Assembly: GCA_020721225.1 (NCBI GenBank)
Contig: DYNE01000013.1
Location: 1 to 49,019 of the forward strand
Reading direction: 5' to 3'
DNA length: 49,019 nt
From: Pelodictyon luteolum
Lineage (GTDB): Bacteria > Bacteroidota > Chlorobiia > Chlorobiales > Chlorobiaceae
The notes under the pieces were generated by a model. It worked only from the letters and a program-made list of their open reading frames with translations, did no database searches and was not told the origin of the DNA. The position numbers were made by a program, and so were the translations under genes. Below, in pieces: positions 4,171-36,580 of this stretch (its first letter is position 1; each line of letters starts with the position of its first letter).

Positions 4171-4171
4171 T

Positions 4172-11051: not shown

Positions 11052-11058
11052 AAGCATT

Positions 11059-11985: not shown

Positions 11986-11989
11986 CGGG

Positions 11990-12784
11990 ATGCCCGCCGC
12001 CATGGGCGCTATCGGCAACAGCGCGGCTCCCGCAAGGGATGACGCGCAAGGGGTGCTCTACGGGGTCTCTCTCGGCCCCGGCGAGCCGGAGCTCATCACG
12101 CTCAAGGCGCTGCGGATTCTTGAACGTTCCGAGGTGATCTGCTGCCCCGGCACGCCCGACCGGATGGGCGGGATGGCAAGCCTCGCGCTCGACATACTCC
12201 GCGCTCTCGGGCTGCCCGAAAGCCGGTTCCGGGTCATGGCGGTGCCGATGTTCCGCAACCCGGAGATCGCGGGGAAGAAGTACCCCGAGCATTTCAGCGC
12301 CATAGCCGGAGCGTGCCGCGAGGGAAAAACCGTGGCCGTGGCGAGCGTCGGGGACGCGGGTTTTTTCAGCACCTTCACTCCGTTCATGCAGATGGCCGCC
12401 CGTGAGGGGATTATGTGCCGCGTCGTCGCCGGGGTTCCGGCGTTTCTTGCCGCCGGTGCGGCCGCCTGCATCCCTCTGGCGCTGCATGACGACCGGGTCA
12501 CGGTAGTTGCCATGGCTGCAGGCACCGAGGAACTCGAACGCGCCGTCCAGGCCGGGGGAACGGTTGTCGTCATGAAGCTTTCGACCATTCGGAAGGAGCT
12601 GGTCCCCTGGCTTGAGCGGAGCGGCCACCCCTTTCTTTACGCCGAAAAAGTCGGCATGCCCGGCGAATTCATCACTTCGGATATCCGGCAGCTCCGCCGG
12701 AGGAGCATACCCTATTTTTCGCTGCTGATCTGCTCGCGTCATTGCCCGCAGCCGGCACAGAACATCGAACATAAGGAAGCATGA
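11990..12784 (+). CDS. cbiL: Cobalt-precorrin-2 C20-methyltransferase CbiL
   Basis: SAM-dependent C20 methylation of cobalt-factor II/precorrin-2. The tetrapyrrole-methylase fold is clear: YGVSLGPGEPELITLKALR, VICCPGTP, VASVGDAGFFSTF and VVAGVPAFLAAGA. About 264 residues from the ATG at 11990, 4 nt after cbiK ends. An alternative ATG at 11963 would overlap cbiK by 23 nt, and one at 12002 is also possible; no strong ribosome site decides. Stop overlaps the next start (ATGA). Confidence 0.92.
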   Translation: MPAAMGAIGNSAAPARDDAQGVLYGVSLGPGEPELITLKALRILERSEVICCPGTPDRMGGMASLALDILRALGLPESRFRVMAVPMFRNPEIAGKKYPEHFSAIAGACREGKTVAVASVGDAGFFSTFTPFMQMAAREGIMCRVVAGVPAFLAAGAAACIPLALHDDRVTVVAMAAGTEELERAVQAGGTVVVMKLSTIRKELVPWLERSGHPFLYAEKVGMPGEFITSDIRQLRRRSIPYFSLLICSRHCPQPAQNIEHKEA

Positions 12785-14196
12785 AAGAAGGACGCATAAC
12801 CGTGGTCGGGCTCGGGCCCGGCAGCGAGGAGACGATAACTCCCGAGGTCATGCACGCCCTGCGTTGCGCCGATGCCGTGGTTGGCTACCGGGTCTACATG
12901 CAGGCGATCGATCGCCTGCTGCCCGATCGTGCGATCCGCGTGACGGGCGGCATGACCGAAGAGGTGGCGCGTGTCGAAAAAGCGTTCGCCCTGGCAGCCG
13001 AGGGGCTGCATGTGGTTGTGGCGAGTTCGGGCGACGCAGGTATTTACGGCATGGCTCCGCTTGTTTTCGAAATGCATGCGCGGGAACCCTACGCCGGAAT
13101 CGCCGTTGCGGTTCTGCCCGGCATCAGCGCCTTTCAGGCGGCGGCCGCCCGGTTGGGCGCTCCGATCAGCCATGACTTCTGCGTTATCTCGCTTTCCGAT
13201 CTCATGACCCCCTGGCCGGTTATCGAGCGCCGGATCAGGGCGGCAGCGGACGCCGATTTCGTTACGGCAATCTACAATCCGAAAAGCCGCGGGCGGTACT
13301 GGCAGATTCACCGTCTGAAGGAGCTTTTTCTGCGGAGCCGCAGCGCCGGAACGCCTCTGGGCATAGCCCGCAATGTCGGGCGTGCGGACGAGTCGCTCCT
13401 GCTCACCACGCTTGGAGCGTTCGATCCGGACTCCCTTGACATGTTTTCAGTCATGCTGATAGGCAACGCTGCCACCTTCGCTGCCCGCGGCAGCATGATC
13501 ACGCCGAGAGGCTACCGCCTGCAGGAGAGCGGCGAAGCGCCGCACGGCGTCGGACAGTCAATCATGATCGAAAGCTTCCGCACCATCGCCGGCATGCTGA
13601 AGCGGGGAGGCGATCATCCGCCCGACATGCTGTGGGCGCTTATCCATACCATCCACACAACGGCGGATTTCGAGTTCGAGGAGCTGTTTTACGCTTCGCC
13701 GGGAGCGATAGCTTCCTGGCACCGGCAGCTCACTGCCGGTGGTGCGGAGATCGTGACCGACGTCACCATGGTGCAGTCGGGACTGCGCAAGGCCGCCCTG
13801 GAGCGTTACGGCATATCGGTCTGCTGTTATCTCGGCGACTCCAGGGTTCCGGAGATGGCCGAAAAGCTGGGGATAACCCGTTCCCAGGCAGGCATGCGGC
13901 TTGCCGCAAGGGAGCATCCCCATGCGCTTTTTGTGATCGGCAACGCTCCGACCGCGCTCATGGAGGCGGCCAATCTGCTGCATCGGGGGAGCTTTTCGCC
14001 AATGGGCGTGATCGGCGCTCCGGTCGGTTTCGTGCATGTCGTCGAGTCGAAACTGCGTCTGAAAGCCGCCTGCGGCAAGACGCCGATTGCCGTGATCGAG
14101 GGACGCAAGGGGGGAAGCGCCGTTGCCGCCACCATCGTCAACGCTGCCATGAGTCTCGACGACGCCCGAACCATGAAGCCCGGCCGCGATGTCTGA
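12781..14196 (+). CDS. cbiHC: CbiH-CbiC fusion (C17-methyltransferase and precorrin-8 methylmutase)
   Basis: A 471-residue two-domain protein. Residues 1-245 are CbiH/CobJ, which methylates C17 and contracts the ring: TVVGLGPGSEETITPEV, VVGYRVYMQAI, SSGDAGIYGMA, AVLPGISAFQAAAARLGAP and AIYNPKSRGR. Residues about 260-460 are CbiC/CobH, which moves the C11 methyl to C12: ALIHTIHTTADFEFEE with the candidate catalytic His, TDVTMVQSGLRK, FVIGNAPTALM and VGFVHVVESK. A good AAGGA lies upstream of the start. The two activities are non-consecutive in the pathway, so the fusion probably aids complex formation or co-regulation rather than direct channelling (inference). Confidence 0.93.
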   Translation: MKEGRITVVGLGPGSEETITPEVMHALRCADAVVGYRVYMQAIDRLLPDRAIRVTGGMTEEVARVEKAFALAAEGLHVVVASSGDAGIYGMAPLVFEMHAREPYAGIAVAVLPGISAFQAAAARLGAPISHDFCVISLSDLMTPWPVIERRIRAAADADFVTAIYNPKSRGRYWQIHRLKELFLRSRSAGTPLGIARNVGRADESLLLTTLGAFDPDSLDMFSVMLIGNAATFAARGSMITPRGYRLQESGEAPHGVGQSIMIESFRTIAGMLKRGGDHPPDMLWALIHTIHTTADFEFEELFYASPGAIASWHRQLTAGGAEIVTDVTMVQSGLRKAALERYGISVCCYLGDSRVPEMAEKLGITRSQAGMRLAAREHPHALFVIGNAPTALMEAANLLHRGSFSPMGVIGAPVGFVHVVESKLRLKAACGKTPIAVIEGRKGGSAVAATIVNAAMSLDDARTMKPGRDV

Positions 14197-15403
14197 ACAG
14201 TTCACCCTCATCGGTATCGGCGACAGCCGCAGTCCGGAACTCTCGCGTGAAGCCCGCGAAGTTCTCCTGTCTCACCGGGTTTTTGCCGGCGGCGTCCGTC
14301 ATCGCGCCATCGTCGCCAGCCTGCTGCCTTCGGGGTATCGCTGGATCACCATCTCGCCGCCGCTTGACGGAGTGCTCGCTTCTCTTGGCGCGGAGCCGGA
14401 ACCGGTAGCGGTTTTTACATCGGGAGACCCCTTCTTCTACGGTTTCGGTGCGACATTGCAGCGCGTTTTTCCGCACGCCGCCTTACGCTGTTTTCCGTTT
14501 TTTCACTCCCTCCAGCTGCTTGCCCACCGGATGCTGCTGCCCTACCAGGAGATGCGCCATGCCTCTCTGACCGGTCGCGGATGGCAGGAACTGGACCGTC
14601 TTCTGATCGCCGGTTCCCCGCTTATAGGAGTGCTTACCGACAGCAGGAAAACCCCTGCGGCCATCGCGTCGCGGCTGCTCGATTTCGGCTTTACGGAGTA
14701 CGTCATGGTTGTCGGCGAGGCGCTCGGCGGCCCCGAAGAGCGGGTGCGCCCCTTCAGGCCGGAGGATGCGGCCGATGAGGATTTCCACTCGCTCAATTGC
14801 GTTCTGCTCATGGCCGAAGAGCCTCCCTGGCGATCGTTCGGCATAGGCGAAGCGGAATTCGAGGGGCTTCCCGGTCGTCCCGACATGATCACGAAAATGC
14901 CGGTACGCATGGCCACGCTTTCGCGACTGAACCTTGTCAATGCCGGGACTTTCTGGGATATCGGCTTCTGCACCGGGTCGGTCTCGATCGAAGCGAAACG
15001 GCTGACGCCGGATCTCGAGGTGACCGCATTCGAGCGGCGTCCGGAGTGCGAAGCGATATTCAGGAGCAATTGCAGAAGGTTCAGGGTCCCGGGCATCAGA
15101 ACGGTGATGGGCGATTTTCTCGATCAGCGGCATGAGATCTATGCGGGCGGGGACGGCACACTCGATGCGGTCTTCATCGGAGGGCATGGCGGACGGCTTC
15201 GGGAGGTGTTTGCCGTTCTCGACCGTATGCTGTCGCCGGGAGGCCGCGTTGCGGTGAATGCCGTACAGCAGAGCACGCTCGACGTATTCCGCTCACTGAC
15301 GGCAGGCTCCGGCTACCGGCAGCTCGAGGAGCTCCGCATCGTATCGGGCAGCCACCATCCCATAACCATCGCTGCGGCGGAAAAGAACGGAACACCATCA
15401 TGA
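14189..15403 (+). CDS. cbiET: CbiE-CbiT fusion (CobL-like C5,C15-methyltransferase/decarboxylase)
   Basis: A 404-residue fusion equivalent to CobL. Residues 1-210 (CbiE, methylation at C5) show [34 protein letters not shown] and [14 protein letters not shown]. Residues about 225-404 (CbiT, methylation at C15 and C12 acetate decarboxylation) have the entry [17 protein letters not shown] and SAM loop [14 protein letters not shown]. The loop reads GFCTG where GAGTG is common. It overlaps the upstream fusion by 8 nt and the downstream one by 4 nt. Confidence 0.93.
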
Positions 15404-17283
15404 AACACCATACCATCACCATTGCCGCGCTTACCGGAAAGGGCGCAGCGGTTGCCCGAAACCTTCGGGACTATCTTTCGGGAGAACCCGGTTGCCGGGT
15501 CGAAATCATTTCCGCAAGGGAGGGCGAGGGATTGCTGAAAGTGCCTTCGATCGCCGGCCATGTTCGTCAGAAGTTCATGAACCGGGATGCGTTTATATTC
15601 ATCGGCTCGCTCGGCATATGCGTCCGCGCGATCGCTCCCGTCATAGGAGACAAGAGATGCGATCCGGCCGTCGTGAACTGCGACGAAAACGGCCTTTTCG
15701 TCCAGCCGGTGCTCTCCGGCCACAGGGGTGGCGCCAACGATCTCGCCCTGCGCCTCTCCCGTCATCTCGGCGCCCAGCCGGTCGTCACCACGTCGAGCGA
15801 CGTCCAGGGCCTCTGGCCTCTCGATATTCTCGGCCGCCAGGAGGGATGGAGCGTGGAGCCGTGGGGAAGCCGCTCGATGACCTTCATGATGGCGGACTAT
15901 GTGAACCACGCGCGCACCGCGCTTCTGCTCGACGTGCGCGACCGGGTGACGGAGATGCTGGAGCGCACGAAACCGGAGTTCGTCGATATCTACTACGACT
16001 ACCGGGCAATACCGTTCGACTCGTACGCGCTGCTGCTTGCCGTGACGCACCGGCGGTACGAACCTCCGGTTCCGGCTGTCTTCTACCGCCCGAAAGTGCT
16101 CTGTGTCGGGCTCGGATGTGAAAAGAACATCGATTCCCGCGGCTTCATAGACGCCTTCGAGGCAGGGTTTCTGCAGCTTGGCCTTTCGCCCCTGTCGATC
16201 CGTTCGCTGGGCTCCATCGATCTGAAGGCCGACGAACCGGCTTTTGTGGAACTTTCCGGCAAACTGCAGATACCGTTTCACTGCTTTTCCGCCGAAGATC
16301 TCGGCCGTGTGGACGGCGTGCCCAATCCGTCCGCGACGGTGATGCGGAAAATCGGCGTGCCGAGCGTAGCCGAAGCCGCTTCAGCCCTGCTTGCCGGAAG
16401 TGCCGGCTGGATCGCGGAGAAGCGGAAATGCGCCATACCCGGCGCTGCCGCAGGCTCTCCCCGGTTCTTCACCATGGCCGTAAGCCTTGCAGCCGGTGCG
16501 GCCAGGGAGGGATTGATCGCCATCGTGGGGGCGGGCCCCGGCGATCCCGAACTGATTACCCTTCGTGGAAGACGGTATCTGGAGCGGGCCGATCTGATTC
16601 TCTATGCCGGAAGTCTCGTTCCGGAAAAACTTACCCATGCGGCAAAACCCGGAGCGCTCGTCAGAAGTTCGGCCGGTATGGCCCTTGAGGAACAGATGGA
16701 GCTTATGCGGCGATTCTGTCGTGAAGGGAAGTTCGTCGTCAGACTCCATACCGGCGACCCATCCATTTACGGTGCGATTCAGGAGCAGATGGAACTGTTC
16801 GACGAATTCGGAATGCGCTATGAGATCGTACCGGGCGTCTCATCGTTTCAGGCCGCAGCGGCTGCCCTCCAGGCGGAATTCACCATCCCCGAAACGGTAC
16901 AGACTATCATTCTTACACGGGGGGAAGGACGTACCCCCGTTCCTGAAAAAGAGCGATTGTCGGAACTTGCCAGATCGAGGAGCACCATGTGCATCTACCT
17001 GAGCGCAGGAATTGCCCGGAAAGTACAGGAAGAGCTTATGCAGCACTATCCGCCGGAAACGCCTGTTGCGGCATGTTACCGGCTGACATGGGATGACGAG
17101 GTGATTCTTCGTGGCGAACTGTCGGGTCTTGAAGATCTTGTCATCCGGCTCGGCAAAGACAATACCGTCCTGATCGTGGTCGGCATTGCTCTCACGGTTC
17201 GCGGAAAACGATCGAAGCTCTATCATCCCGTTTTTTCGCACGGGTACAGACCGGAAAACGGCGTAAAGGAGGTTCATCCATGA
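15400..17283 (+). CDS. cbiGF: CbiG-CbiF fusion (precorrin-5A hydrolase and C11-methyltransferase)
   Basis: A 627-residue fusion of two sequential activities. Residues 1-365 are CbiG, which opens the delta-lactone and releases acetaldehyde in the anaerobic route: [38 protein letters not shown] (read in two parts) and the C-terminal [16 protein letters not shown]. Residues from about 372 are CbiF/CobM, methylating C11: [48 protein letters not shown] and [17 protein letters not shown]. CbiG marks the oxygen-independent pathway. Stop overlaps cbiJ start by 4 nt. Confidence 0.94.
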
Positions 17284-18053
17284 TCATGCTGTTCGGAGGA
17301 ACGACGGAGGGACGTATCGTGGCAAAGCTTCTTGACGATATGGGGTTGCACTATCTTTACTCCACAAAAACCGCTTCGACGGGATTTTCCATGACACATG
17401 GCGAATCCCGGAATGGGCCGCTCAATGATATGACCATGGTGGCATTGCTGTTCGAACGAAAGATCGGACTTGTCATCGATGCCGCACATCCTTTCGCGAT
17501 TGGCCTCCACCGGACGATTGCCAGGGCATCGGGAACGCTTGGGATTCCGGTTATCAGGTTCGAGCGGGACTACAGTCTCGATTCCGGACTTCTCGATCCG
17601 AAGCGAGTGCGTTATGCCGATTCGTTTGCCGCAGCTATCGGATTGCTCACAATCATGAATCCCGGACTCGTATTGGCCTCGACAGGTGTACAGACCATAG
17701 CGATGCTACGCCCCTACTGGCAGTCGCAGCGCATGATGGTAAGGATACTCGAAAGCGAGCGGTCGCTCGAAATTGCCCGAAGCGCCGGGTTTCCCCCTGA
17801 AAATCTGATACGAATGACGCCGTCCGGAAGTCAGGAGGAAGAGGTATCGATCATCCGGACTTTCTGCATCGACTGCCTTTTATGCAAGGAGAACGGAACA
17901 TCCGGTTTCCTTCCGGTCAAGCTTGCGGCGGCCAGGGCCTGTGGTATTTCCGTTATCATCGTGCGTCGTCCGGACCTGCCGGCGATGTTCAGAACCGTAA
18001 CGTCGCCGGACCGGTTGCGGCAGGCGGTGATCAATACCCTGGAGGGACAATGA
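17280..18053 (+). CDS. cbiJ: Cobalt-precorrin-6A reductase CbiJ
   Basis: NAD(P)H-dependent reduction of the corrin macrocycle. The 257-residue protein opens with [16 protein letters not shown], has the family motif [16 protein letters not shown], and later [14 protein letters not shown] strong AAGGAGG ribosome site lies before the ATG at 17280, and the start overlaps the previous stop. It is followed by cbiD with another ATGA overlap. Confidence 0.92.
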
Positions 18054-19147
18054 TCTCTGCCGCAAGAGGGTTGAGAACCGGTTATACTACCGGAGCCTGT
18101 GCTGCAGCAGCAACAAAAGCGTCGCTTTCCATGCTTCTTTGCTCCATCTTCAACAACAACGTGAGCATTGCGCTTCCCGGCGGAGAGATCGCAATTTTCG
18201 CCGCGACCCTTCTCAGCCATTCCGGTACAAAGGCTGTGACCTGCGTGAAAAAGGACGGCGGCGACGATCCTGATGTGACCAGCGGGCTCTCGATCTGCAG
18301 CGAAGTGTCGCTTCGTCCCGATCTTCAGGACGGAACCGTCCTGTTCCTGCACGGGGAGGGGGTCGGGACCGTAACCCTTGCCGGTCTCGGCATTCCGCTC
18401 GGGGATCCGGCCATCAACCCCGTACCGAGAACCATGATAACCGGAGTCGTACGGACGCTTCTGGACAGGTACGGGGTTTCGGGCGGCGCCTCGGTCCGCA
18501 TATCGGTTCCGGGCGGCGCCGCGCTGGCCGAAAAAACCATGAACGCGCGGCTCGGCGTGCTTGGCGGCATTTCAATCATCGGAACGAGCGGCATCGTCGT
18601 GCCGTATTCCGGGCAGGCCTACCTCGACTCGATCCGGAGGGCGTTGCAGGTCGCCGCGGAAAACGGATGCCGCGAACTGGCCATTTCGGCCGGAGCCCGG
18701 AGCGAAAACGCGCTCCGGAGCGTATTCCCTGGCCTTCCGGAGCAGGCCTTCATCCATTACGGCAACAGGATCGGCAAAACGCTTGAAATGATTGGCGATA
18801 TCGGCGGCTTCGAGCGGGTTGTCGTCGGGGTCATGCTTGCGAAGTCCACCAAGCTCGCGCAGGGGGAGCTCGATCTGTCGAGCCGGAGCGTCGGGCTCGA
18901 CAGGGAGTTTATCGCAGGGCTCGCCGCAAAAACAGGATATCCGGAGAGCACAGGGGAGAGCATCATGGAGAGGGAACTGGTGCGCAGCGTCGTGGAGCTT
19001 ATTCCGTTCAGGGCGCATGAGCCCTTCTACCGGGAACTTGCCGAAGCATGCAGGAGCACCTGTGCGTCGGTGATTCCCTCCATCGGGCTCACCTTTGTGC
19101 TGATCAGTCAGGAGCACGGCTGCATCGTCTGCCCGGATAACCGATAA
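18050..19147 (+). CDS. cbiD: Cobalt-precorrin-5B C1-methyltransferase CbiD
   Basis: The anaerobic-route C1 methyltransferase. The N-terminus LRTGYTTGACAAAATKA is diagnostic, followed by VKKDGGDDPDVTSG, GEGVGTVTLAGLGIPLGDPA, NPVPRTMI and LGGISIIGTSGIVVPYS. At 365 residues it is the normal length. The start at 18050 overlaps the cbiJ stop; the frame extends upstream to 17882 but only as a shadow of cbiJ. Together with CbiG and CbiK it fixes the pathway as anaerobic. Confidence 0.94.
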   Translation: MISAARGLRTGYTTGACAAAATKASLSMLLCSIFNNNVSIALPGGEIAIFAATLLSHSGTKAVTCVKKDGGDDPDVTSGLSICSEVSLRPDLQDGTVLFLHGEGVGTVTLAGLGIPLGDPAINPVPRTMITGVVRTLLDRYGVSGGASVRISVPGGAALAEKTMNARLGVLGGISIIGTSGIVVPYSGQAYLDSIRRALQVAAENGCRELAISAGARSENALRSVFPGLPEQAFIHYGNRIGKTLEMIGDIGGFERVVVGVMLAKSTKLAQGELDLSSRSVGLDREFIAGLAAKTGYPESTGESIMERELVRSVVELIPFRAHEPFYRELAEACRSTCASVIPSIGLTFVLISQEHGCIVCPDNR

Positions 19148-19164
19148 CCGAACATCGAGCAATC

Positions 19165-20175
19165 ATGCGTTTTCTTCTCAATATCAGCACGCATCCCGGA
19201 GATGTCGCCATAGCCGGCGAGCATTGGGCCGATGCTGTCTCATTGCTCGAACAGACCGGTTTTGACGGATACGAGATCTACCCGGTCGGGGATTACGATT
19301 ATGACGTCATTCCGGAGCGGATCATCGGCGGCATCCATCTCCGTTTTTTCGTGATGATCAGACAGATATGGAACAACGACCGCCAGGCGCTTGTCGATAT
19401 GTTCGGCAGCGAGGAGAACGTGCGGTTCTATTACGGCGGCACGGATCGCGACGCGATCATCGACTGCTACCGCAGACAGCTCGATCTGGCATGCCGGTTC
19501 GATGTTCCGTATGTGGTTTTCCACCCGGTGCACTATGAACTCGATTATGTTTTCAACTGGCAGCCGCCCTGGAACTGGCGGGAGACGATCGACCTGTCGG
19601 CTGAAATCATCAGTGAAGTCGTTCGACAGACCTCCTACAAGGGGTGGATCCTGTTCGAAAACCTCTGGTGGCCCGGAAATTTCCGGCTGGACAGCGTCAG
19701 GGAGATCGAACGACTGCTTTCGGGAGTGTCGTATTCCCGTTGCGGTCTGGTGCTCGATACCGGTCATGTTTTCAACAAGAACCAGTCGCTGAAAACGGAG
19801 GCCGAAGCGATCTCTTTTCTTCTTGATGAGGTCGATCGTCTCGGCGAGTATCGCGATCTGGTCAGGGCGGTGCATCTGTGCAGGAGTCTGTCGGGCGACT
19901 ATGTGCGGGCAAGCCGGACGATCGCCAATCCTTTTGCCGGAGCCGCGACATTCCGGGAGCGGTTCGGCGTGGCGGCGCGTCATGTCCGGCATATCGACCG
20001 GCACGAGGCGTTCGAGCACCCCTCCATTGCCGCCCTTTTCGACCGGATCGAGCCGGAAACGGTCGTTTTCGAGTTTTCTTTCGCTTCCCGTGAGGAGTGG
20101 CTCGGCAAGATAGAACGGCAAAAACGGGCGCTCGGAGAGTGCTTCAGCCGTCGGAGACCGGAGGGGAGACGATGA
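19165..20175 (+). CDS. TIM-barrel protein, xylose isomerase/AP endonuclease-2 superfamily
   Basis: A 336-residue protein beginning MRFLLNISTHPGDVA, with repeated beta-alpha units and candidate metal ligands in VVFHPVHYELD, WILFENLWWPGN, LVLDTGHVFNK and AVHLCRSLSGD. This His/Glu/Asp/His order matches the sugar-phosphate isomerase-like TIM barrels that bind divalent metals. It starts 17 nt after cbiD and overlaps a radical-SAM gene by 4 nt, so the two probably act together. It is not a known B12-pathway enzyme. Function unknown; isomerase, epimerase, hydrolase or RiPP-type modification are all possible. Confidence 0.8.
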   Translation: MRFLLNISTHPGDVAIAGEHWADAVSLLEQTGFDGYEIYPVGDYDYDVIPERIIGGIHLRFFVMIRQIWNNDRQALVDMFGSEENVRFYYGGTDRDAIIDCYRRQLDLACRFDVPYVVFHPVHYELDYVFNWQPPWNWRETIDLSAEIISEVVRQTSYKGWILFENLWWPGNFRLDSVREIERLLSGVSYSRCGLVLDTGHVFNKNQSLKTEAEAISFLLDEVDRLGEYRDLVRAVHLCRSLSGDYVRASRTIANPFAGAATFRERFGVAARHVRHIDRHEAFEHPSIAALFDRIEPETVVFEFSFASREEWLGKIERQKRALGECFSRRRPEGRR

Positions 20176-21209
20176 CGCTTTCCATGGTATCCTCCCTGAT
20201 GCTCGTGGTGACGACGGCATGCAATCTCTCCTGCCGCTACTGCTATGAAGGAGGGCGCCGTTCCGGGGAGTTCATGAGTCTCGATACGGCCCTCTGCGCG
20301 CTCGACGCGGCGGCCCTGGGGGGAAAGCCCTTCCATGTCCAGTTCACAGGGGGGGAGCCGCTGCTTGCAGCAGATCTTGTCTTCGCCGTTCTCGAGCATA
20401 TCCAAGCCGAGGCTCTGCCGGCGACGACGGCCATCCAGACAAACGGCATATTGCTCAACCGCGACGCCGTGCGAAAGTTCAGGGAGCACAGGACCGCAGT
20501 AGGCATAAGCGTGGACGGTCTGCCGGGAATACAGGAGCGGATGCGGGGCCAGAGTGCGGCAACCTACAGGGCCATGAGGATACTCGATGACGAAGGGGTT
20601 CCCTTCAGCGTCACCACGGTGCTTTCCGCCGTGAATACCGGAGAGCTTGCAAAGCTTGCCATGGCCCTGCACTCCTGGCCAATGGCTTCGGCTATCGGAC
20701 TCGACCTGCTCGTGCGGAAAGGCTCTGCATTTCCGGGAAGCGGGATCGAACCGCCTGAAGAGGCGCTGTTGCGCCAGGGCATAGGGGGGCTGCTCGGCAC
20801 GCTCGACCTGCTGAACCGTGAACGAAGGCATCCTCTTGTCCTTCGGGAAAAACAGCTGGTACAGAGGGCTTTGAAAAACGCCGTTCCGGCAGCACCCTAC
20901 TGTTCCGCCTGCACCGGAGCGAGCCTCGCCGTTACGCCCGGAGGGGAGCTTTACCCCTGCACCCAGACCATGGGGGATCCTGATTTTTTTCTCGGAACGC
21001 TCGCCCGCCCCGACATGTCGCCTTCCCGAACCTTTGCCGGAGCGTCTCCGGTCAGGGGAGGGTGCTCCGGCTGCGTGCTCGAGGGGCGCTGTCCGGGCGA
21101 CTGCCCGTCCCGGATGCATTACAACAGAGGGAACGAGTGCGACCTCGTCTGTACGCTCTATCGAACCATATACGATTACTGCAAGCAAACAGGAGAAATT
21201 CCATCATGA
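20172..21209 (+). CDS. Radical SAM enzyme with C-terminal SPASM-like cysteine domain
   Basis: A 345-residue radical SAM protein. The 4Fe-4S motif is C17-x3-C21-x2-C24 in TTACNLSCRYCYEGG, with GGEP at 60-63. The C-terminal part has ten further cysteines: C244 and C247 (YCSAC), C263, C298, C301, C307, C311, C323, C327 and C337, consistent with auxiliary clusters as in SPASM/twitch peptide maturases. I recall a TIGRFAM radical SAM group (CbpB) described near cobalt/cobalamin genes as peptide-modifying, but cannot confirm membership. GAGGGGAG precedes the start, which overlaps the TIM-barrel stop; it is followed by cobN with a 4-nt overlap. No precursor peptide is visible next to it. Confidence 0.85.
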   Translation: MTLSMVSSLMLVVTTACNLSCRYCYEGGRRSGEFMSLDTALCALDAAALGGKPFHVQFTGGEPLLAADLVFAVLEHIQAEALPATTAIQTNGILLNRDAVRKFREHRTAVGISVDGLPGIQERMRGQSAATYRAMRILDDEGVPFSVTTVLSAVNTGELAKLAMALHSWPMASAIGLDLLVRKGSAFPGSGIEPPEEALLRQGIGGLLGTLDLLNRERRHPLVLREKQLVQRALKNAVPAAPYCSACTGASLAVTPGGELYPCTQTMGDPDFFLGTLARPDMSPSRTFAGASPVRGGCSGCVLEGRCPGDCPSRMHYNRGNECDLVCTLYRTIYDYCKQTGEIPS

Positions 21210-24200
21210 ACCATTTTTCGCTCAGCTATTTCAGCGTCAATCCTTCCGAAGTCGCCACGCTCTCAGGCGGGGTGCGCCTCTATAACGGTGAAGGCGGCAA
21301 GGCGAAGGTGACGGCCCGCATTGCCGCGCAGCTCTCCTCTCCGCAGCAGATAGCGTCGTTCGCCCTGATTGCGGCAGCCTCGCATGTGGTCATTATCCGG
21401 CTTATGGGCGGCAAGGCCTCGTTTCCTGCCTTCGACGCCTTTCTCGATGCCTGTTCGCAGAGACGGGAAAAAGGAGACTCCGTTCCTCTTGTCGTGATCC
21501 ATGCCGGAGGCGGCGACGATGAGGCGCTCGATCTTGCCCGTGAACACAGCATCCTGTTTGGTACGGAGGCGGGGGAGAGGATCCGGCGTTATCTGCAGAA
21601 CGGAAGCGCCCTGAATTTCGCGAATCTGCTCCGGTATCTGCACAAGCTTCTCCATGCTGAAGATGCGGAGGTTCCCGAACCTGTGGAAATGCCGCACGAA
21701 GGGGTGTATCATCCCGACTGGCCGGCTTTCGACGATTTCGAAGGATACCTTGCGAAGCATGTCGATCCCTCGAAGCCCGTCGTCGGTATCTGGTTTTACC
21801 AGAACTACTTCGTCGACGCCGATCTTGCCGCTTACGATGGTCTCATCCGGGAGATCGGGAAGCGGGGGGCCGGCGTCATTGCGGTGTTTCATCACCGGTA
21901 CCGCGACGTGATGCGCGGTAACAGGGGCGCCGACTATGTGGCCGATCGCTATTTCCGTCATCCCGACGGCACAAGCCGCATCGATGTGCTCATCAATCCC
22001 ATGCTTTTTTCCCTCACCCTGGCATCACCGGATTACACGGGCATCCTGCCGGGTCTCGACGTTCCCTTTCTGCAGGCTTTCAATACGTTTCAGAGCAGGG
22101 AGCAGTGGCAGCAGAGCGTACAGGGGCTTGGCACCATGGAAGTCTCCTACAACGCCGCGCAGCCCGAATTCGACGGCGCTCTCATGACGGTGCCCTTTTC
22201 GACCAGGGAGCATCGCGGCATCGATCCCGTGACCGGCGGCGAGGTCCTGAAAATCATGCCCATCGAAGAGCGTACGGCCAAACTGGCCGATATGGCGCTC
22301 CGGTGGGCTGAACTTCGCCGGAAACCGAACGCCGACAAACGCATCGCCATCATCTTCCACCACTACCCGCCCCGTAACGACCGCATCGGGTGCGCTTCGG
22401 GTCTCGACAGCTTCGCGAGCGTCAGACTGCTGCTCGAAAGAATGGCGGAGGAGGGGTATGCGGTCGGAAGGCAGTACGAAACCGGCGACGATCTTGCGCG
22501 CGAGCTTGTCTCGGGAATGACCTGCGACCGCCGCTGGCTCACCCCGGAGCAGATGGCCGCCAAAGCCGAAGCGACAGCGAAGCGGGAGCGGTACCAGCCC
22601 TGGCATGAGGCGCTGCCGACAGGCGTGAAGCAGAAGATGGTAAAGGAGTGGGGGCGGATGCCGGGGGAACTGTTCGTTCACGACGAAGAGCTGCTCTTTC
22701 CGGGCACGATCAACGGGAACGTGTTCATCACCATCCAGCCCTCACGGGGAAGCATCGAGCGTCAGGATCAGATGCTGCACGATCCCGATATACCGCCGCC
22801 GCACAACTATCTTGCGCACTATCGCTGGATCAGGGACGTCTTCAGGGCCGATGCCGTCATGCATGTCGGCACGCACGGTTCGCTGGAGTGGCTGCCCGGC
22901 AAGGCGCTCGGGCTTTCGGAGGAGTGTTACCCGGATCTGGCCATCATGGATCTGCCGAACATCTATCCCTATATCATCAACAATCCGAGCGAGGGAACGC
23001 AGGCCAAGCGCCGGTCGAACTGCTGCATCATCGACCACATGACGCCGGTCTTCACCAACGCCGACCTCTACGAAGAGATGGCCGTGCTCGACGGCCACCT
23101 GCGGAGCTATGCGGAAGCGCGAAACAGCGACCCGGCGAAGCTCGACGTGCTGCGCCCGATGATCCGGGACGCGTTGGTCGCCGCCGATCTCGACAAGGAC
23201 ACCGGGTACGGTCGCGAAGATGCGATGGAGGATTTCGAAAAATTTCTCGAAGTGCTGCACGCCAAGCTCGACGAGATTGCCGACACCATGGTTTCCGACG
23301 GTCTGCATACCATGGGCGTCGCTCCCGAAGATGACCGTCTTGCCGAACTGCTCGTGCAGCTCACGAGGCTCGACCAGGGCGGCGTGCCGTCGCTGCGGGA
23401 ATCCATCGTCAGGGCCATGGGATTCGATTACGACGACCTGCTTCGCCGCAAGGGTTCTCCGGTATTCGGCCCGACCTGCGATACCGGCGGGGAGAAAATC
23501 CGTCTCGCCCATGAGCATGCGCTCGCGATGGTGAAGCGGCTCTCCTCGGAAGGGTACCGGGCTGTTGCGCCCGATGCGGTGCAGGCCGCCATGCCGGAGC
23601 TGGCGACACCCGATGTGATGGCAGGGCTGCAATACATCTGCACCGATCTGGTTCCCCGTCTGCTGCGGGTAACCGACGAGATAGATTCTTCCCTGAAGGG
23701 CTTTTCCGGTCGTTTTGTCGAGCCCGGCCCTTCGGGAGCGCCTACCAGGGGGCAGGCCGACATCCTGCCGACCGGGCGCAATTTCTTCTCGATCGATCCG
23801 CAAAGGATTCCGACGCCTGCCGCCTGGAAAGTCGGCTGCAGTCTTGGCGATGCGCTCGTCGGGCGCTATATGGCAGAGAAAGGCGAGTATCCCCGCAGCA
23901 TCGGCATCATCCTCTTCGGCGGGGCCACCATGCGTTCCGGAGGCGACGATCTCGCGGAAATCTTTTACCTCATGGGCGTCAGGCCGGTCTGGCAGCAGGG
24001 CAGCGGCTACGTAAAAGGGGTCGAAGTCATTCCCCTCGCCGAACTCGGGCGTCCGAGGCTCGACATTGTGCCCAGGATTTCCGGATTTTTCCGCGACGCG
24101 TTTCCGCTGCTTGTCGAACGTATCGACGATGCGGTCAGGATGGTCGCCGCGCTTGACGAGCCGCCCGAAAGCAATCTGCTCCGCCGCAACGTGCTTGCGG

Positions 24201-24985
24201 ACGTCGAGGAGTACCGGCGGAACGGCATGAACGACGAAGAAGCGCTCCGCGAAGCTTCGTTCCGGGTTTTCGGCTGCCCTCCGGGCACCTACGGGGCGGG
24301 GGTTTCGGAGCTGATCGAATCGAAGGACTGGCAGACGCAGGAGGACCTGGCGGCCAACTACATCCGCTACTCTTCGCATGCCTACGGCCGGGGATCCTGC
24401 GGCCGGCAGAAACCCGATACCTTCCGCAGGGTGCTTTCCCGCATGGACGCCACGGTGAAAAACGAGGACACCCGCGAATACGACATGTTCTCATGCACCG
24501 ATTACTACAACTACTATGGCGGTCTCATCACGGCGGCAAAGAGCCTGCGAGGGGGCGTTCTGCCGGAAGCCTACATGGGCGACAGCTCCGATCCGAACCG
24601 GGTGCAGGTGCGCACCACCTTCGAGGAGGCGAAGCATGTTTTCCGTTCTCGCCTGCTCAATCCGAAATGGCTCGAAGGGCTGAAGCGGCACGGCTACAAG
24701 GGGGCGGGCGACATCTCGAAGGTGCTCGATATCATACTCGGCTGGGACGCCACGGCCGAGGTGGTCGATGACTGGATGTACGAGCGCGTTGCCGGCAAGT
24801 ATGTCTTCGACGAAGCGATGAAGAAGTGGATGGATGAGGTCAATCCCTATGCGCGCCAGAACATTCTCGACAAGCTGCTCGAAGCGATCAGCCGGGGCAT
24901 GTGGAATGCGGGTGACGACATGAAGCTGCGCCTGCAGGAGGAGTATCTCGAAACCGAAGGCCAGCTCGAGGAGATCAACGAGTGA
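21206..24985 (+). CDS. cobN: CobN-type metal chelatase large subunit (copy 1)
   Basis: A 1259-residue CobN/BchH-family subunit that binds the tetrapyrrole and metal. The core signature is intact: HVGTHGSLEWLPGK starting at H553, with H557 in the THG motif, followed by LPNIYPYIINNPSEGTQAKRR and IDHMTP. Later hallmarks are LPTGRNFFSIDPQRIP, GWDATAEVVDDWMYE and NPYARQNILDKLLEA. AGGAG lies 10 nt upstream of the ATG; an in-frame extension to 21062 is a shadow of the radical-SAM gene. In aerobic pathways CobN works with CobS/CobT on hydrogenobyrinate a,c-diamide; here ChlI/ChlD-like partners lie downstream. Cobalt is likely but another metal is possible. Confidence 0.93.
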   Translation: MNHFSLSYFSVNPSEVATLSGGVRLYNGEGGKAKVTARIAAQLSSPQQIASFALIAAASHVVIIRLMGGKASFPAFDAFLDACSQRREKGDSVPLVVIHAGGGDDEALDLAREHSILFGTEAGERIRRYLQNGSALNFANLLRYLHKLLHAEDAEVPEPVEMPHEGVYHPDWPAFDDFEGYLAKHVDPSKPVVGIWFYQNYFVDADLAAYDGLIREIGKRGAGVIAVFHHRYRDVMRGNRGADYVADRYFRHPDGTSRIDVLINPMLFSLTLASPDYTGILPGLDVPFLQAFNTFQSREQWQQSVQGLGTMEVSYNAAQPEFDGALMTVPFSTREHRGIDPVTGGEVLKIMPIEERTAKLADMALRWAELRRKPNADKRIAIIFHHYPPRNDRIGCASGLDSFASVRLLLERMAEEGYAVGRQYETGDDLARELVSGMTCDRRWLTPEQMAAKAEATAKRERYQPWHEALPTGVKQKMVKEWGRMPGELFVHDEELLFPGTINGNVFITIQPSRGSIERQDQMLHDPDIPPPHNYLAHYRWIRDVFRADAVMHVGTHGSLEWLPGKALGLSEECYPDLAIMDLPNIYPYIINNPSEGTQAKRRSNCCIIDHMTPVFTNADLYEEMAVLDGHLRSYAEARNSDPAKLDVLRPMIRDALVAADLDKDTGYGREDAMEDFEKFLEVLHAKLDEIADTMVSDGLHTMGVAPEDDRLAELLVQLTRLDQGGVPSLRESIVRAMGFDYDDLLRRKGSPVFGPTCDTGGEKIRLAHEHALAMVKRLSSEGYRAVAPDAVQAAMPELATPDVMAGLQYICTDLVPRLLRVTDEIDSSLKGFSGRFVEPGPSGAPTRGQADILPTGRNFFSIDPQRIPTPAAWKVGCSLGDALVGRYMAEKGEYPRSIGIILFGGATMRSGGDDLAEIFYLMGVRPVWQQGSGYVKGVEVIPLAELGRPRLDIVPRISGFFRDAFPLLVERIDDAVRMVAALDEPPESNLLRRNVLADVEEYRRNGMNDEEALREASFRVFGCPPGTYGAGVSELIESKDWQTQEDLAANYIRYSSHAYGRGSCGRQKPDTFRRVLSRMDATVKNEDTREYDMFSCTDYYNYYGGLITAAKSLRGGVLPEAYMGDSSDPNRVQVRTTFEEAKHVFRSRLLNPKWLEGLKRHGYKGAGDISKVLDIILGWDATAEVVDDWMYERVAGKYVFDEAMKKWMDEVNPYARQNILDKLLEAISRGMWNAGDDMKLRLQEEYLETEGQLEEINE

Positions 24986-26700
24986 ACGGTGTCCGGGTTA
25001 TGCTGCTGGTTATTGCGCTGATCATGGGTGGCGTCAGGCAAGAACGGCTCCTGGCGGCGGGCAACGAAGATATCGTTGCCATAAGCGCGTCCGAACTCGA
25101 AGCCACGGACGCCACGGATGTCGCCGGGCTGCTCAATCGCATCCCCGGCGTCAGGGCGAGCGAATCGTCGGTCTCCATACGGGGCTCTTCCAACGTGAAG
25201 GTACTGCTCGACGGGCGACCGATAAACGATCCGACATCGCATTCGGGATCGGTGAAATGGTCGATGATCTCCCTCTCCGGCATCGAAAAAATCGTGATCC
25301 ACAAAGGGAGGGGGAGCGTCTCGTACGGCGACAATACGGAGGGCGGCGTTATCGTCATCACCTCGAAAAAGGCCGGCCGCATAGGCGGAATGGTCGGCGT
25401 CGGCGCCGGCAATAACGGGGAAAGGCATGCCGATATCAACCTGCAGGGCCGTTTAGACCGTTTTGCCGCGAACCTGACTGCGGGAGCGAAGGGGTACGAC
25501 GGATTTACGGTCAACGACGACAAGCGGGAGTATCGCGCGGGGTTGCGTCTCGATTACGCTCCGCTTGAAGGCGCCTCGCTGTTCCTTTCCGGCGACTATA
25601 GCACGCAGGAGAAGGGGATGCGGGGGTACCCCGGAAGCCGGACGCCGAACGCCCGAATGGGGTACGACGACTATTCGCTGCTTTTCGGCATCAGCCGCAA
25701 TGCTCTTGACGGGCGGACCTGGTTCCGTAAAACCCTGACGCAGAACAGCGATTCCGACAGGGACTTTTTTTCCGGCCTGGAGGTGCTCTCCGCCGGTATG
25801 AGTGTCGACGGGCCGGTCAGCCTGCCTCTTGCCGGATCGCTGAAGGCCGGTTTCGGCTACGAATGGCAGTCGGCAAGCGGCAGCGGGTTCGGCGCGAAAG
25901 AGGAGCGGCGGGGCTGGCTGCATCTTACCAGGCTTTTCCGGCAGAAGGATGGCCCGTGGTCGGCCGATGTCGGCATCCGTGAGAACATCTACTCCGCTTT
26001 CCGCAATACCCTGAATCCGGAGGCGAAGGTGGCGTGGAAAAGGAAGCCGTGGAGAGTGGAGCTGACGGCCGGCGCGACAAATAACCTGCCGACCTTCAGG
26101 CAGCGCTATAACGAGACCTCGACCACCCGTCCCAATCCCGGTCTTGAGATGGAGCAGGCATTGAACACCGGCTGCTCGGTGTCGTTCGCTCCCTCGGAAA
26201 AGCTCAGCGCCGAACTGTCGTTTTTTCATCGGGACATCACCGATCGCATCACCTATGTGCGTGCTTCGGACAATACCGGAAAGTACGAGAATTTCGGAGA
26301 GGTCGTCTATCAGGGAGTGGAGGCTTCGCTTTCCTGGAAACCGTCGCCATGGATCGAGTTTACGCCTTCGTACCTCTATCTTCACGCCCGCAACGAAGAG
26401 ACCGGCCTCTGGCTGCCCGCCATTCCCTTCCACACCGTTTCGGGAGAGCTTCTCCTGAAACCGGCAGACGGGCTCTCCATCAGGACGGATGTGAAATATA
26501 CCGGGAAGGTTTTCGCGAGAACCGACAACACCGATACCATTGCAGGTTATCTCGTGGCTGCTCTCAGGGTCGATTACCGGACAGGATCGGCGCAGTTTTT
26601 CGTCGATATCGACAATCTGTTCGACAGCGAATATCTCTACGCCGACGGTTATGATGCCCCGCCCCGCGAGTGGGGGATCGGCATGAATTACACCTTCTGA
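24982..26700 (+). CDS. TonB-dependent receptor inside the chelatase module
   Basis: A 572-residue outer-membrane receptor starting at GTG 24982, which overlaps the cobN stop and has GAGGAG just upstream. A hydrophobic signal is followed by a plug domain with LLNRIPGVRASES, SIRGSSNVKVLLDGRPIND, GIEKIVIHKGRGSVSYGDN and GGVIVITSKK. The barrel ends in GIGMNYTF with the typical terminal Phe. It is compact and lacks an N-terminal carboxypeptidase-regulatory-like domain. Position between CobN and ChlD-like subunits suggests import of the metal complex or tetrapyrrole handled by the chelatase; ligand unknown. Confidence 0.88.
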   Translation: MNGVRVMLLVIALIMGGVRQERLLAAGNEDIVAISASELEATDATDVAGLLNRIPGVRASESSVSIRGSSNVKVLLDGRPINDPTSHSGSVKWSMISLSGIEKIVIHKGRGSVSYGDNTEGGVIVITSKKAGRIGGMVGVGAGNNGERHADINLQGRLDRFAANLTAGAKGYDGFTVNDDKREYRAGLRLDYAPLEGASLFLSGDYSTQEKGMRGYPGSRTPNARMGYDDYSLLFGISRNALDGRTWFRKTLTQNSDSDRDFFSGLEVLSAGMSVDGPVSLPLAGSLKAGFGYEWQSASGSGFGAKEERRGWLHLTRLFRQKDGPWSADVGIRENIYSAFRNTLNPEAKVAWKRKPWRVELTAGATNNLPTFRQRYNETSTTRPNPGLEMEQALNTGCSVSFAPSEKLSAELSFFHRDITDRITYVRASDNTGKYENFGEVVYQGVEASLSWKPSPWIEFTPSYLYLHARNEETGLWLPAIPFHTVSGELLLKPADGLSIRTDVKYTGKVFARTDNTDTIAGYLVAALRVDYRTGSAQFFVDIDNLFDSEYLYADGYDAPPREWGIGMNYTF

Positions 26701-26708
26701 AACATACC

Positions 26709-28670
26709 ATGAAAAGAAAATACTTTCCATTTTCGGCGATTGTCGGGCAGGAGGATCTCAAAAAGGCCCTGCTGCTCAATGCGGTCAATCCCCGTACCGG
26801 CGGAGTGCTTGTCCGCGGGGAAAAAGGAACCGCCAAATCGAGCGCTGTCAGGGCGCTCGGCCAACTGCTTCCCGAACGTCGGCAGAGAGCCGGGCAAGGA
26901 GCGGCGGCGGTCGTTACGCTTCCGCTCAACGCAACCGAAGAGATGGTTGCCGGCGGTATCGATTTTCAGGAAACCATGAAAGAGGGCCGCAGGATTTTCC
27001 AGCCAGGGCTCCTTGCCAAAGCCCATGAGGGAATTCTCTATGTCGATGAAGTGAATCTGCTTGACGACCATCTTGTCGATATCGTGCTCGATGCGGCCTC
27101 TTCCGGAGAGAATCGTGTGGAGCGCGAAGGCATGACCCTTGTGCATCCCTCGCTGTTCGTGCTTGCCGGCACCATGAATCCCGAAGAGGGCGAACTTCGT
27201 CCGCAGCTGCTCGACCGGTTCGGCCTCTGTGTGGAGGTCCATGGCGAAACCGATCCGGATCTGCGGGTGGAGCTGATGCTTCGCAGGGAGGCTTTCGACA
27301 GCGATCCCGACGCATTTGCCGGACACAGCAGCGATGAAGAGCGGCGGATCGCCGAAAAGATTGCGGCCGCGCGTCTCCTTCTGCCTGCGGTACGGATGCC
27401 CTCACACCTGCGGGGGTTCATTTCGGAGCTGTGCCGCAACAGTAACGTCGCCGGCCATCGGGCTGATCTTGTCATCGAGCAGGCCGCACGGGCGAGTGCC
27501 GCACTGCGAGGTTCACGGGAAGTGTCGGTTGCCGATATCACCGGAGTGGCTCCGCTCGCTCTCGTCCATCGGCGCAGGGACCCCGTGCCTCCGCCCGAAG
27601 AGCGGCCCAGGGAGCCGGAACAGGGCGAAGGGCAGGAGAACGACAACCGGCAGCAGCCGGAAGATGATGGCCGGACGCCCGGGGAGCCGAAGGAGAACTC
27701 CGGGGAGAAGAGCGCTGAAGGCCCCGAAGGAGACCGGCCAGCAGAGAGCGACGGAGATCGGCAGGAGCCGGCGGAACCGCAGGAGCCGGAAGATCGGGGT
27801 GAAGGGGAGGAGCGTTCCGGAACCGACGAGCTGTTCGGCGTAGCCCCCTCCTTCAGGGTCCGCAGCATCGTGACGCCGAAGGACCGCAAAATGCGTCGCG
27901 GTTCGGGTAAGCGCTCCCGGTCGCGGGTTTCGCAGAAACAGGGGCGCTACACCAAAAGCACCATGCCCCGCGGCACGAACGATATCGCGCTTGACGCCAC
28001 GCTGAGGGCCGCAGCGCCCTTCCAGCGGTATCGCCTGAACCCGAACGGCATGGCGGTGGTTCTGCAGAACGAGGATATACGCGAAAAGATCAGGGAGAAG
28101 CGCCTTGGCAATCTGCTCATTTTCGTCGTGGACGCGAGCGGTTCGATGGGCGCAAGAGGCAGGATGGCGGCCTCGAAAGGGGCGATCATGTCGCTTCTGC
28201 TCGACGCATACCAGAAGCGCGACAAGCTTGCCATGGTCTCCTTCCGCAAGGAGGGCGCGGCGGTGAATCTGCCGGTCACCTCTTCCATCGAACTTGCCGC
28301 GAGACTGCTCAGGGATATGCCGGTAGGCGGGCGCACTCCCTTCTCGGCCGGCCTCGTAAAAGGGTACGAAATAGCGATGAACTATCTGCGCAAGGAGCCG
28401 CAGGGGCGTCCGCTCGTCATTCTTGTCACCGACGGCAAGGCGAACCGGTCCATCGGTTCGTCCAGGCCTCTCGACGAGGCGTTCCTGATCGCCCGGCGGG
28501 TTGCCGGTGAAGAGCGCATCCGCTATCTCGTTGTCGATACCGAAGAGCCCGGCCTCGTCAATTTCGGACTCGCAAAAAAACTCGCCGGTCTGCTCGATGC
28601 ATGGTATTTCCGCATCGACGACCTGCGCGCAGATACCCTCGTTTCCATCGTAAAAAACATGACACCATGA
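26709..28670 (+). CDS. ChlD/BchD-like chelatase subunit (AAA+ plus von Willebrand A)
   Basis: A 653-residue protein with an AAA+ domain (Walker A GEKGTAKSS at 37-45, Walker B LYVDEVN with D113 and E114), a Pro/Glu/Arg-rich linker (about 290-372) and a C-terminal von Willebrand A domain with MIDAS VDASGSMGA (D475, S477, S479). This is the layout of magnesium-chelatase subunit D, except that Walker A and B are both intact. Start 26709 is 8 nt after the receptor stop. ChlI/ChlD-like proteins beside cobN have been proposed in comparative genomics to replace CobS/CobT; here they probably power one or both CobN proteins. Confidence 0.92.
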   Translation: MKRKYFPFSAIVGQEDLKKALLLNAVNPRTGGVLVRGEKGTAKSSAVRALGQLLPERRQRAGQGAAAVVTLPLNATEEMVAGGIDFQETMKEGRRIFQPGLLAKAHEGILYVDEVNLLDDHLVDIVLDAASSGENRVEREGMTLVHPSLFVLAGTMNPEEGELRPQLLDRFGLCVEVHGETDPDLRVELMLRREAFDSDPDAFAGHSSDEERRIAEKIAAARLLLPAVRMPSHLRGFISELCRNSNVAGHRADLVIEQAARASAALRGSREVSVADITGVAPLALVHRRRDPVPPPEERPREPEQGEGQENDNRQQPEDDGRTPGEPKENSGEKSAEGPEGDRPAESDGDRQEPAEPQEPEDRGEGEERSGTDELFGVAPSFRVRSIVTPKDRKMRRGSGKRSRSRVSQKQGRYTKSTMPRGTNDIALDATLRAAAPFQRYRLNPNGMAVVLQNEDIREKIREKRLGNLLIFVVDASGSMGARGRMAASKGAIMSLLLDAYQKRDKLAMVSFRKEGAAVNLPVTSSIELAARLLRDMPVGGRTPFSAGLVKGYEIAMNYLRKEPQGRPLVILVTDGKANRSIGSSRPLDEAFLIARRVAGEERIRYLVVDTEEPGLVNFGLAKKLAGLLDAWYFRIDDLRADTLVSIVKNMTP

Positions 28671-33748: not shown

Positions 33749-33763
33749 GAATAATTAATAACA

Positions 33764-33952
33764 GTTACGGTTTCCGGCGCTGCAAGGCGCCGGAATGAAA
33801 AGGGAACCCGGTGAAAATCCGGGACAGTGCCCGCTGCTGTAATTCCTCCGTCGGCATCCGCCGGCGGCGCGGTGCTTCCGAAAAGGCCACTGGTCCGCGC
33901 CCGCGGACCGGGAAGGCCGGATGCATGGGGAGAGTCAGAAGACCTGCCGTAA
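33764..33952 (+). promoter_or_regulatory. Cobalamin riboswitch 2
   Basis: Classic aptamer elements: GGTTTCCGGCGC (33769-33780) with its complementary GCGCCGGAATG, AAAAGGGAAC, the stem CCCGGTGAAAATCCGGG, CAGTGCCCGCTGCTGTAA, GGCCACTGG (33885-33893), GGGAAGGCC, and the B12 box GAGTCAGAAGACCTGCC (33931-33947). It precedes a TonB receptor and a BtuF-like lipoprotein, so these are expected to be repressed by adenosylcobalamin. The match is better than riboswitch 1. Confidence 0.97.
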
Positions 33953-34255
33953 CGAAGTAATGCTTCGGGAAAAAAGCGAACAGAGATGACAGCAAGAGAT
34001 GATATTCCCGGCGGGAGGGAGGCGGCATTGCCGTTTCTCCGGTGGCGAAGCGTTCTCCCTTTCGGCTCAAGGCCTGAAGGGTTCCGATGCCGCGCCCGTT
34101 GCCTGCACCATGCAGAGAGCGTGTCCGGGCGGAGTCCGGCATGGATGACGCCCTCTTATCGCAGCAGGGCCGGCCCTTTCCTGCATTCGGGGGAAAGGGG
34201 CCGACAGACAGCAACAACAACGCATTGGCATTGTGCAACCACAAAACAAAACTCG
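33953..34255 (+). other. Leader between riboswitch 2 and receptor gene, with hairpin
   Basis: About 300 bases without a convincing gene; the receptor frame stays open upstream to 33986, but the predicted peptide is Arg-rich and unlike a real N-terminus. A hairpin pairs CGGCCCTTTCC (34171-34181) with GGGGAAAGGGGCCG (34190-34203), with one bulge. It is not followed by a T-run, so it may belong to a translational or Rho-dependent expression platform rather than an intrinsic terminator. Confidence 0.5.
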
Positions 34256-36565: not shown

Positions 36566-36580
36566 GGTATGGAAAAGCAG

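Follow-up and report, generated by a model that had tools for sequence, protein, structure and literature searches.

We analysed a 49,019-nucleotide stretch of Pelodictyon luteolum DNA (contig DYNE01000013.1, positions 1 to 49,019, referred to here as the window), in which a gene for a TIM-barrel protein (TIM, 336 amino acids) and a gene for a radical S-adenosylmethionine (SAM) protein (rSAM, 345 amino acids counted from the ATG) lie between cbiD and the gene for a CobN-type cobaltochelatase subunit, CobN1. TIM starts 17 nucleotides past cbiD, rSAM overlaps the TIM stop by 4 nucleotides, and CobN1 starts at 21206 with a further 4-nucleotide overlap with the end of rSAM; the intergenic space around the pair is nearly nil, and the list of open reading frames (ORFs) offers a longer rSAM start at a GTG at 20097. 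An initial annotation, made from the sequence alone, had described the two genes as translationally coupled and tightly placed between cbiD and cobN, and its coordinates are exact. TIM, rSAM and CobN1 all belong to a single B12 directon of about 33 kb (612–33468) downstream of a cobalamin riboswitch, whose widest intergenic gap, of about 390 nucleotides past the first TonB gene, is occupied by a small ferredoxin ORF. We favor, with moderate confidence, the view that TIM and rSAM are part of one anaerobic corrinoid-salvage module that is expected to be active when B12 is scarce. The features of the directon and of the region that follows it are these:

125–365, + strand: cobalamin riboswitch that precedes the B12 directon (82.8 bits to Rfam RF00174, gathering threshold 31.5)
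612–2522, + strand: TonB-dependent outer-membrane receptor, first gene of the directon (PF00593, PF07715)
2590–2904, + strand: small 2x[4Fe-4S]-type ferredoxin (NCBIfam ferredoxin-type matches)
2911–6360, + strand: BtuF-like binding protein, BtuC-like permease and BtuD-like ATPase (NCBIfam BtuC 197 bits and corrinoid ABC ATPase 172 bits, both below the equivalog cut-offs)
6357–7547, + strand: BtuF2, a second periplasmic binding protein (PF01497)
7133–8704, + strand: CbiZ, adenosylcobinamide amidohydrolase (ORF as listed, the true start probably lying past 7547; PF01955, E 5e-62)
8692–10248, + strand: nitrilase-superfamily amidase (PF00795, E 5e-39; Glu44-Lys117-Cys148 conserved)
10245–19147, + strand: de novo corrin pathway genes for CobA, CbiK, CbiL, CbiHC, CbiET, CbiGF, CbiJ and CbiD (Pfam, NCBIfam)
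19165–20175, + strand: TIM, AP-endonuclease-2 superfamily, predicted metal-dependent cobamide phosphodiesterase (PF01261, nine invariant ligand positions, AlphaFold2 model, Foldseek)
20172–21209, + strand: rSAM, CobN-associated radical SAM/SPASM enzyme (PF04055, seven invariant SPASM cysteines, AlphaFold2 model)
21206–24985, + strand: CobN1, class-I cobaltochelatase large subunit of a distinct clade (TIGR02257, 952 bits, cut-off 822; tree)
24982–26700, + strand: TonB-dependent receptor 1 (PF07715 plug; TonB-B12 and siderophore receptor models)
26670–28670, + strand: ChlD-type chelatase subunit (TIGR02442, 758 bits, below the cut-off of 779)
28601–29710, + strand: ChlI-type chelatase ATPase (TIGR02030, 419 bits, below the cut-off of 467)
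29725–33468, + strand: CobN2, a second CobN/BchH-type subunit, of a clade other than that of CobN1 (profile match; tree)
33751–33965, + strand: second cobalamin riboswitch, ahead of TonB receptor 2 (RF00174, 105 bits)
33986–37762, + strand: TonB receptor 2 (closest model TonB-hemin) and a periplasmic binding protein (profile matches)

TIM belongs to the AP-endonuclease-2 superfamily, with a PF01261 match of 53.1 bits (cut-off 31.1, E 5e-14), and nine of its positions are invariant in 83 homologues (H58, H120, E165, D198, H201, H237, D278, H280 and E303). These correspond to the nine metal ligands at the trinuclear site of endonuclease IV. In a hidden Markov model comparison with Nfo, the endonuclease IV of the same genome, six of the nine align directly, and the other three correspond by their order and by a common DRH motif. 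The AlphaFold2 model of TIM has a predicted local distance difference test (pLDDT) value of 96.4 and its top Foldseek match is endonuclease IV, and the metal-dependent TIM barrel suggested in the initial annotation is supported. Assignment to either of two named families was rejected: scores are 11.3 bits against the CbiR model (NF041277, E 0.17, cut-off 105) and 17.3 bits against the endonuclease IV model (TIGR00587, cut-off 129.65). A search of solved-structure sequences with TIM as query gave no relevant match. Around the metal-binding Glu, TIM and CbiR both read ENLxxP, and CbiR, a member of the same superfamily, has been shown experimentally to be a cobamide phosphodiesterase (PMC7733943). 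TIM most likely cuts a corrinoid phosphoester related to that cut by CbiR, with another preference or in another context, and it would then represent a second, CbiR-independent family of cobamide phosphodiesterases.

The rSAM protein matches PF04055 (E 2e-19), and both the CxxxCxxC motif (CNLSCRYC) and the ten C-terminal cysteines are present much as first described. Three cysteines of the cluster motif (C17, C21 and C24) are invariant in 17 homologues, together with seven in the canonical spacing of a SPASM domain (C244, C263, C298, C301, C307, C311 and C327), which identifies rSAM as a radical SAM/SPASM enzyme. Its AlphaFold2 model (pLDDT 89.7) adopts a fold like that of CteB and of anaerobic sulfatase-maturating enzyme (anSME), with a template-modelling score of about 0.75 to anSME. 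Members of the rSAM family score at least 300 bits, compared with at most 136 for other radical-SAM proteins in the same search. The closest sequence models are peptide maturases, and no NCBIfam family cut-off is reached, the best match being PapB at 91.8 bits versus 340, followed by CbpB (71.8 versus 375) and SCIFF (71 versus 425); the NirJ models give about 50–53 bits. The CbpA-CbpB-type maturase identity that had been put forward for profile comparison finds no support in these scores. With all NCBIfam matches below cut-off, no profile model places TIM or rSAM in any named pathway, in agreement with the initial view that neither has a place in the known B12 pathway. As a separate observation, the ferredoxin at 2590–2904 is a candidate electron donor for rSAM, and by similarity read from the sequence it has a counterpart at the same place in a related locus (L141, 2790–3092).

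TIM and rSAM are inherited together. In a genus sample of 61 genomes three have TIM, and these are also the ones with full-length rSAM; in a phylum sample of 394 genomes the two occur in exactly the same eight (hypergeometric probability 7e-17, kinship ignored). The orthologues are adjacent in other Chlorobiaceae, with 61–65% identity, and the pair is therefore not a chance arrangement of ORFs. In one genome (G065) the two genes are 274 kb apart, in halves that consist of BtuF-CbiZ-nitrilase followed by TIM and of rSAM followed by CobN1-TonB-ChlD-ChlI, and each half of this split Chlorobi module has a cobalamin riboswitch ahead of it (L138 and L139). TIM and rSAM are two members of a larger module that is inherited as a unit. 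The linked order is readable in three related genomes (L140–L142) as BtuF2-CbiZ-nitrilase-TIM-rSAM-CobN1; the window differs in that de novo cbi genes separate the nitrilase from TIM, so that the order cbiD-TIM-rSAM-cobN is local. Within the genus sample the close CobN1 orthologue was found nowhere but in TIM/rSAM genomes, namely in two of the three, the contig of the third stopping just past rSAM. G065 additionally encodes a nitroreductase-family protein, BluB-like by eye only, in a cobalt-transport/corrin cluster (L138:3466-4131).

The rSAM gene goes specifically with one distinct clade of CobN, as its dedicated partner. CobN1 scores above the TIGR02257 cut-off, is encoded with ChlI and ChlD, and falls in a tree into a clade separate from that of CobN2. 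In all eight genomes in which rSAM is unlinked from TIM, CobN1 and/or ChlI/ChlD and CbiZ are adjacent to it. In one of the eight, Sporomusa sp. KB1, another copy of TIM (L159:4216-5214) stands directly ahead of CobN1-rSAM-nitrilase-CbiZ. A Clostridium-centred family sample has TIM in four of the five rSAM genomes versus 27 of 195 overall (p 0.0014), and in one of these rSAM and TIM genomes (G474, locus L180) the module has decayed jointly, with stops in both TIM and rSAM and with CobN, ChlI and BtuC fragmented.

Across bacteria, scanning the contigs of genomes yielded 80 TIM loci, distributed among Chlorobi, Desulfobacterota-type Deltaproteobacteria, Chloroflexi, Ferrimonas, Clostridia, Negativicutes and Treponema. 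At least one corrinoid-type neighbor lies within about 10 kb at 55 of 84 TIM loci, the commonest being BtuC-like proteins (36), CbiZ (25), CobN (22), BtuR (17), ChlI/D (17) and nitrogenase-like proteins (12). The linkage to cobN- and cbi-type genes for which the initial annotation had proposed a genome survey thus extends across phyla. In Ferrimonas, TIM lies in an operon read as btuDC-cobU-cobC-cobT-cbiP-cbiA-cobS-TIM, where the cob gene names are a reading of the sequence and not profile matches. The TIM tree contains one clade of Chlorobi, Deltaproteobacteria, Chloroflexi and Ferrimonas and a second of Negativicutes; both are mostly in corrinoid contexts, unlike several clostridial groups.

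Cobalamin riboswitches accompany many of these operons. They are present at all seven Negativicutes loci tested, including one just ahead of an operon of nitrogenase-like genes and TIM (L103), upstream of the TIM operons of L042, L044, L050, L052 and L055, and, in L179, ahead of a CobN-rSAM-ChlI-ChlD operon without TIM. None was found at L036, L037, L041, L043, L046, L058, L063 and L101, despite the corrinoid genes there. Cobalamin riboswitches usually repress at high B12, and the module is therefore expected to serve acquisition, with expression at times of B12 scarcity.

Co-inheritance, linkage, the riboswitches of many of the operons, the metal ligands, the SPASM cysteines and the folds are what the analysis shows; the substrates, the reactions and the sequence of steps in the module are inferred. 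Imported corrinoids would enter through the TonB receptors and BtuFCD, TIM would hydrolyze a phosphodiester in the nucleotide loop of the cobamide at a trinuclear-type metal center, CbiZ would take off the aminopropanol arm, and the nitrilase would probably hydrolyze an amide. CobN1-ChlD-ChlI would then insert or exchange the cobalt of the stripped corrinoid. The rSAM protein would presumably serve this chelatase as a dedicated redox or radical partner, with either the corrinoid or the chelatase itself as its target. Of the ideas in the initial annotation, alteration of a corrinoid fits best; more generally, its functional proposal stands as regards the link to corrinoids and CobN and finds no support as regards a peptide or metallophore product. 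The nitrilase itself (518 amino acids) lies between CbiZ and the corrin genes, has a C-terminal half without a Pfam match, and is kept with TIM and rSAM in Chlorobi, Desulfobacterota and Dethiosulfatarculus; it could hydrolyze corrin amides.

Two further groups of genes are associated with the module at other loci. A conserved ABC-2 type exporter permease is present in the CobN-rSAM-ChlID module or near TIM at 11 loci from several phyla (L045, L046, L055, L058, L061, L066, L158, L160, L162, L179 and L054), and the exporter ATPase was checked in L160 and L162; the window contains no ABC-2 exporter pair. A nitrogenase-like set, consisting of a NifH-like protein and two NifD/E-like subunits, immediately precedes TIM, shares its cluster or follows CobN1 (L103:6601-9983, L065:1662-5053, L069, L099, L112, L115, L161:17690-19001 and L040:6305-9773), and in L103 and L069 it is downstream of a cobalamin riboswitch. 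The NifH-like protein scores 393 bits to nifH, just below the cut-off, and 377 to CfbC, and the other two subunits fall far below every cut-off. This set is possibly a reductase that acts on corrinoids or tetrapyrroles; we found no match in the literature for nitrogenase-like genes with a cobalamin riboswitch.

Several observations count against the salvage interpretation. VIA-align ties xylose isomerase (Z 18.9) with endonuclease IV (18.5) for TIM; the fold alone is therefore no proof of a phosphodiesterase, and the case for phosphodiester hydrolysis rests on the ligand set. Comparison of TIM with a profile of 12 Chlorobi CbiR proteins was not significant (hhalign E 0.066). A true CbiR is encoded in 52 of the 61 genus genomes, and since the source genome is among them and also encodes CbiZ, simple remodelling of the lower ligand by TIM looks redundant. 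At 29 of the 84 TIM loci, mostly clostridial, there is no corrinoid neighbor, and the neighbor families were set by clustering, with BtuD-like matches that include unrelated ABC ATPases. No cobalamin riboswitch was found near TIM at nine loci (L059, L060, L064, L071, L073, L074, L068, L100 and L086), which are mostly clostridial and all of which lack corrinoid genes near TIM. TIM was searched for with the patterns LFENLWW and FLLNISTH, and the invariance of that motif partly reflects how the loci were collected.

The alternative that survives best, which we nonetheless regard as unlikely, is cobalt removal, in which TIM, CbiZ and the nitrilase would strip the corrinoid, CobN1-ChlD-ChlI with rSAM (or the nitrogenase-like reductase) would extract the cobalt, and the empty ligand would be exported or degraded. 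A CobN relative, HmuS, acts as a heme de-chelatase whose activity requires NADH as well as the membrane fraction (PMC12583661). Genes for early, CbiK-type cobalt insertion, a pathway that needs no CobN, are in or near the window and several other loci, strongly reducing partners are encoded in the form of rSAM and the nitrogenase-like proteins, and the exporter permease at 11 loci would suit disposal of the ligand. Set against these points, CobN1 exceeds the curated CobN cut-off and is encoded with the insertion machinery ChlI/ChlD, the window has no exporter pair, and riboswitch control implies expression at low B12, when destruction of a corrinoid would be costly. Some purple sulfur bacteria make cobalt-free corrinoids, but cobalt is very hard to pull from corrins without destruction of the ring (PMC6771967). 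We give slightly less credence still to a scheme of anaerobic dismantling, in which the side groups are taken off by TIM, CbiZ and the nitrilase, the central cobalt is then removed or exchanged without oxygen by CobN1-ChlD-ChlI together with a partner of radical-SAM or nitrogenase-like type, and the ABC-2 exporter of other phyla gets rid of the empty ring. Demetallation or exchange of this kind, if true, would to our knowledge be the first enzymatic case for a corrin.

It is improbable that rSAM matures a ribosomally synthesized and post-translationally modified peptide, such as one that binds cobalt for the benefit of CobN, in line with the modified peptide or metallophore of the initial annotation. 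The top sequence and fold matches of rSAM are indeed peptide or protein maturases (PapB at 92 bits; anSME and CteB), and the ABC-2 type exporter pair in the module of several other phyla is a possible sign of an exported product. All of these matches fall far below the family cut-offs, however, and every rSAM locus has chelatase or corrinoid genes instead. The protein starts right at the cluster motif and has no N-terminal peptide-recognition domain in the alignment or the model, and no recurring PqqD-like neighbor family was noticed among the annotated neighbor clusters. Among 308 short ORFs from 13 of 19 rSAM loci and the window (six loci having no qualifying ORF), no family common to different genera was detected, the matches in an all-versus-all comparison being either riboswitch-overlapping or unrelated; this bears out the earlier remark that no precursor peptide is visible nearby, and there is in any case little intergenic room for one.

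We hold a further possibility, that rSAM modifies a side chain of CobN1 as anSMEs do with sulfatases, to be just as improbable. The fold match to anSME and the constant association of rSAM with the CobN1 clade or its module are what this would lead one to expect, whereas a comparison of rSAM-linked with other CobN proteins revealed no clade-specific invariant Cys or Ser and no convincing site in CobN1, and members of the CobN1 clade at three TIM loci (L079, L096 and L104) have no rSAM nearby. Least probable of all is that TIM, as an isomerase or epimerase of sugars or as another enzyme, merely hitch-hikes in B12 operons: PF01261 holds many isomerases, one of which ties with endonuclease IV in the fold comparison, and a third of TIM loci lack corrinoid neighbors, but such isomerases use about four metal ligands, whereas TIM has nine invariant ligands of the endonuclease IV type, is repeatedly linked in several phyla to corrinoid genes and to riboswitches, and co-occurs perfectly with rSAM in the phylum.

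Under the salvage interpretation, two enzyme families that lacked an annotation find a role in corrinoid salvage. CbiR is predicted to have a counterpart in a second cobamide phosphodiesterase, and the cobalt step to involve a radical enzyme. The interpretation also offers a reason why anaerobes with early cobalt insertion retain a CobN-type chelatase. CobN-ChlI/D beside B12 receptors had been noticed in green sulfur bacteria and cobalt insertion into imported corrinoids suggested, with the question of CobN in Chlorobium left open and treated only by speculation, and with neither the radical SAM protein nor the TIM barrel mentioned (PMC8620254). We found no description of a CobN-rSAM-TIM-CbiZ module in the literature, which is a weak negative given that subscription journals were thinly covered.

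The module can be compared with several known systems. It resembles CbiZ-BtuFCD corrinoid salvage in its uptake genes, CbiZ and cobalamin riboswitches; what it has in addition are TIM, the nitrilase, rSAM, a class-I chelatase and, for some phyla, a reductase of nitrogenase-like type. Like the CobN-ChlI-ChlD cobaltochelatase, CobN1 passes TIGR02257 and is encoded with ChlI/ChlD; unlike standard CobN and HmuS, it belongs to a distinct clade tied to rSAM, TIM and CbiZ. The rSAM protein has the CxxxCxxC motif and seven-cysteine SPASM domain of anSME, CteB, PapB and AhbC/AhbD/NirJ, and also the fold of anSME, but its locus has neither a precursor peptide nor a sulfatase neighbor; AhbC, AhbD and NirJ are known radical-SAM enzymes that act on tetrapyrroles (PMC7242693). 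TIM is related to endonuclease IV by its top Foldseek match and by ligand positions, six aligned and three matched by motif, and differs in having no DNA-repair context, in a genome with a separate nfo. With CbiR of Akkermansia muciniphila (PMC7733943; NF041277) TIM shares the superfamily, residues of the metal-ligand type, the ENLxxP motif and cobamide-gene neighbors, and it is distinguished by being about 80 amino acids longer, by scoring far below the CbiR cut-off, and by residing in the same genome as a true CbiR.

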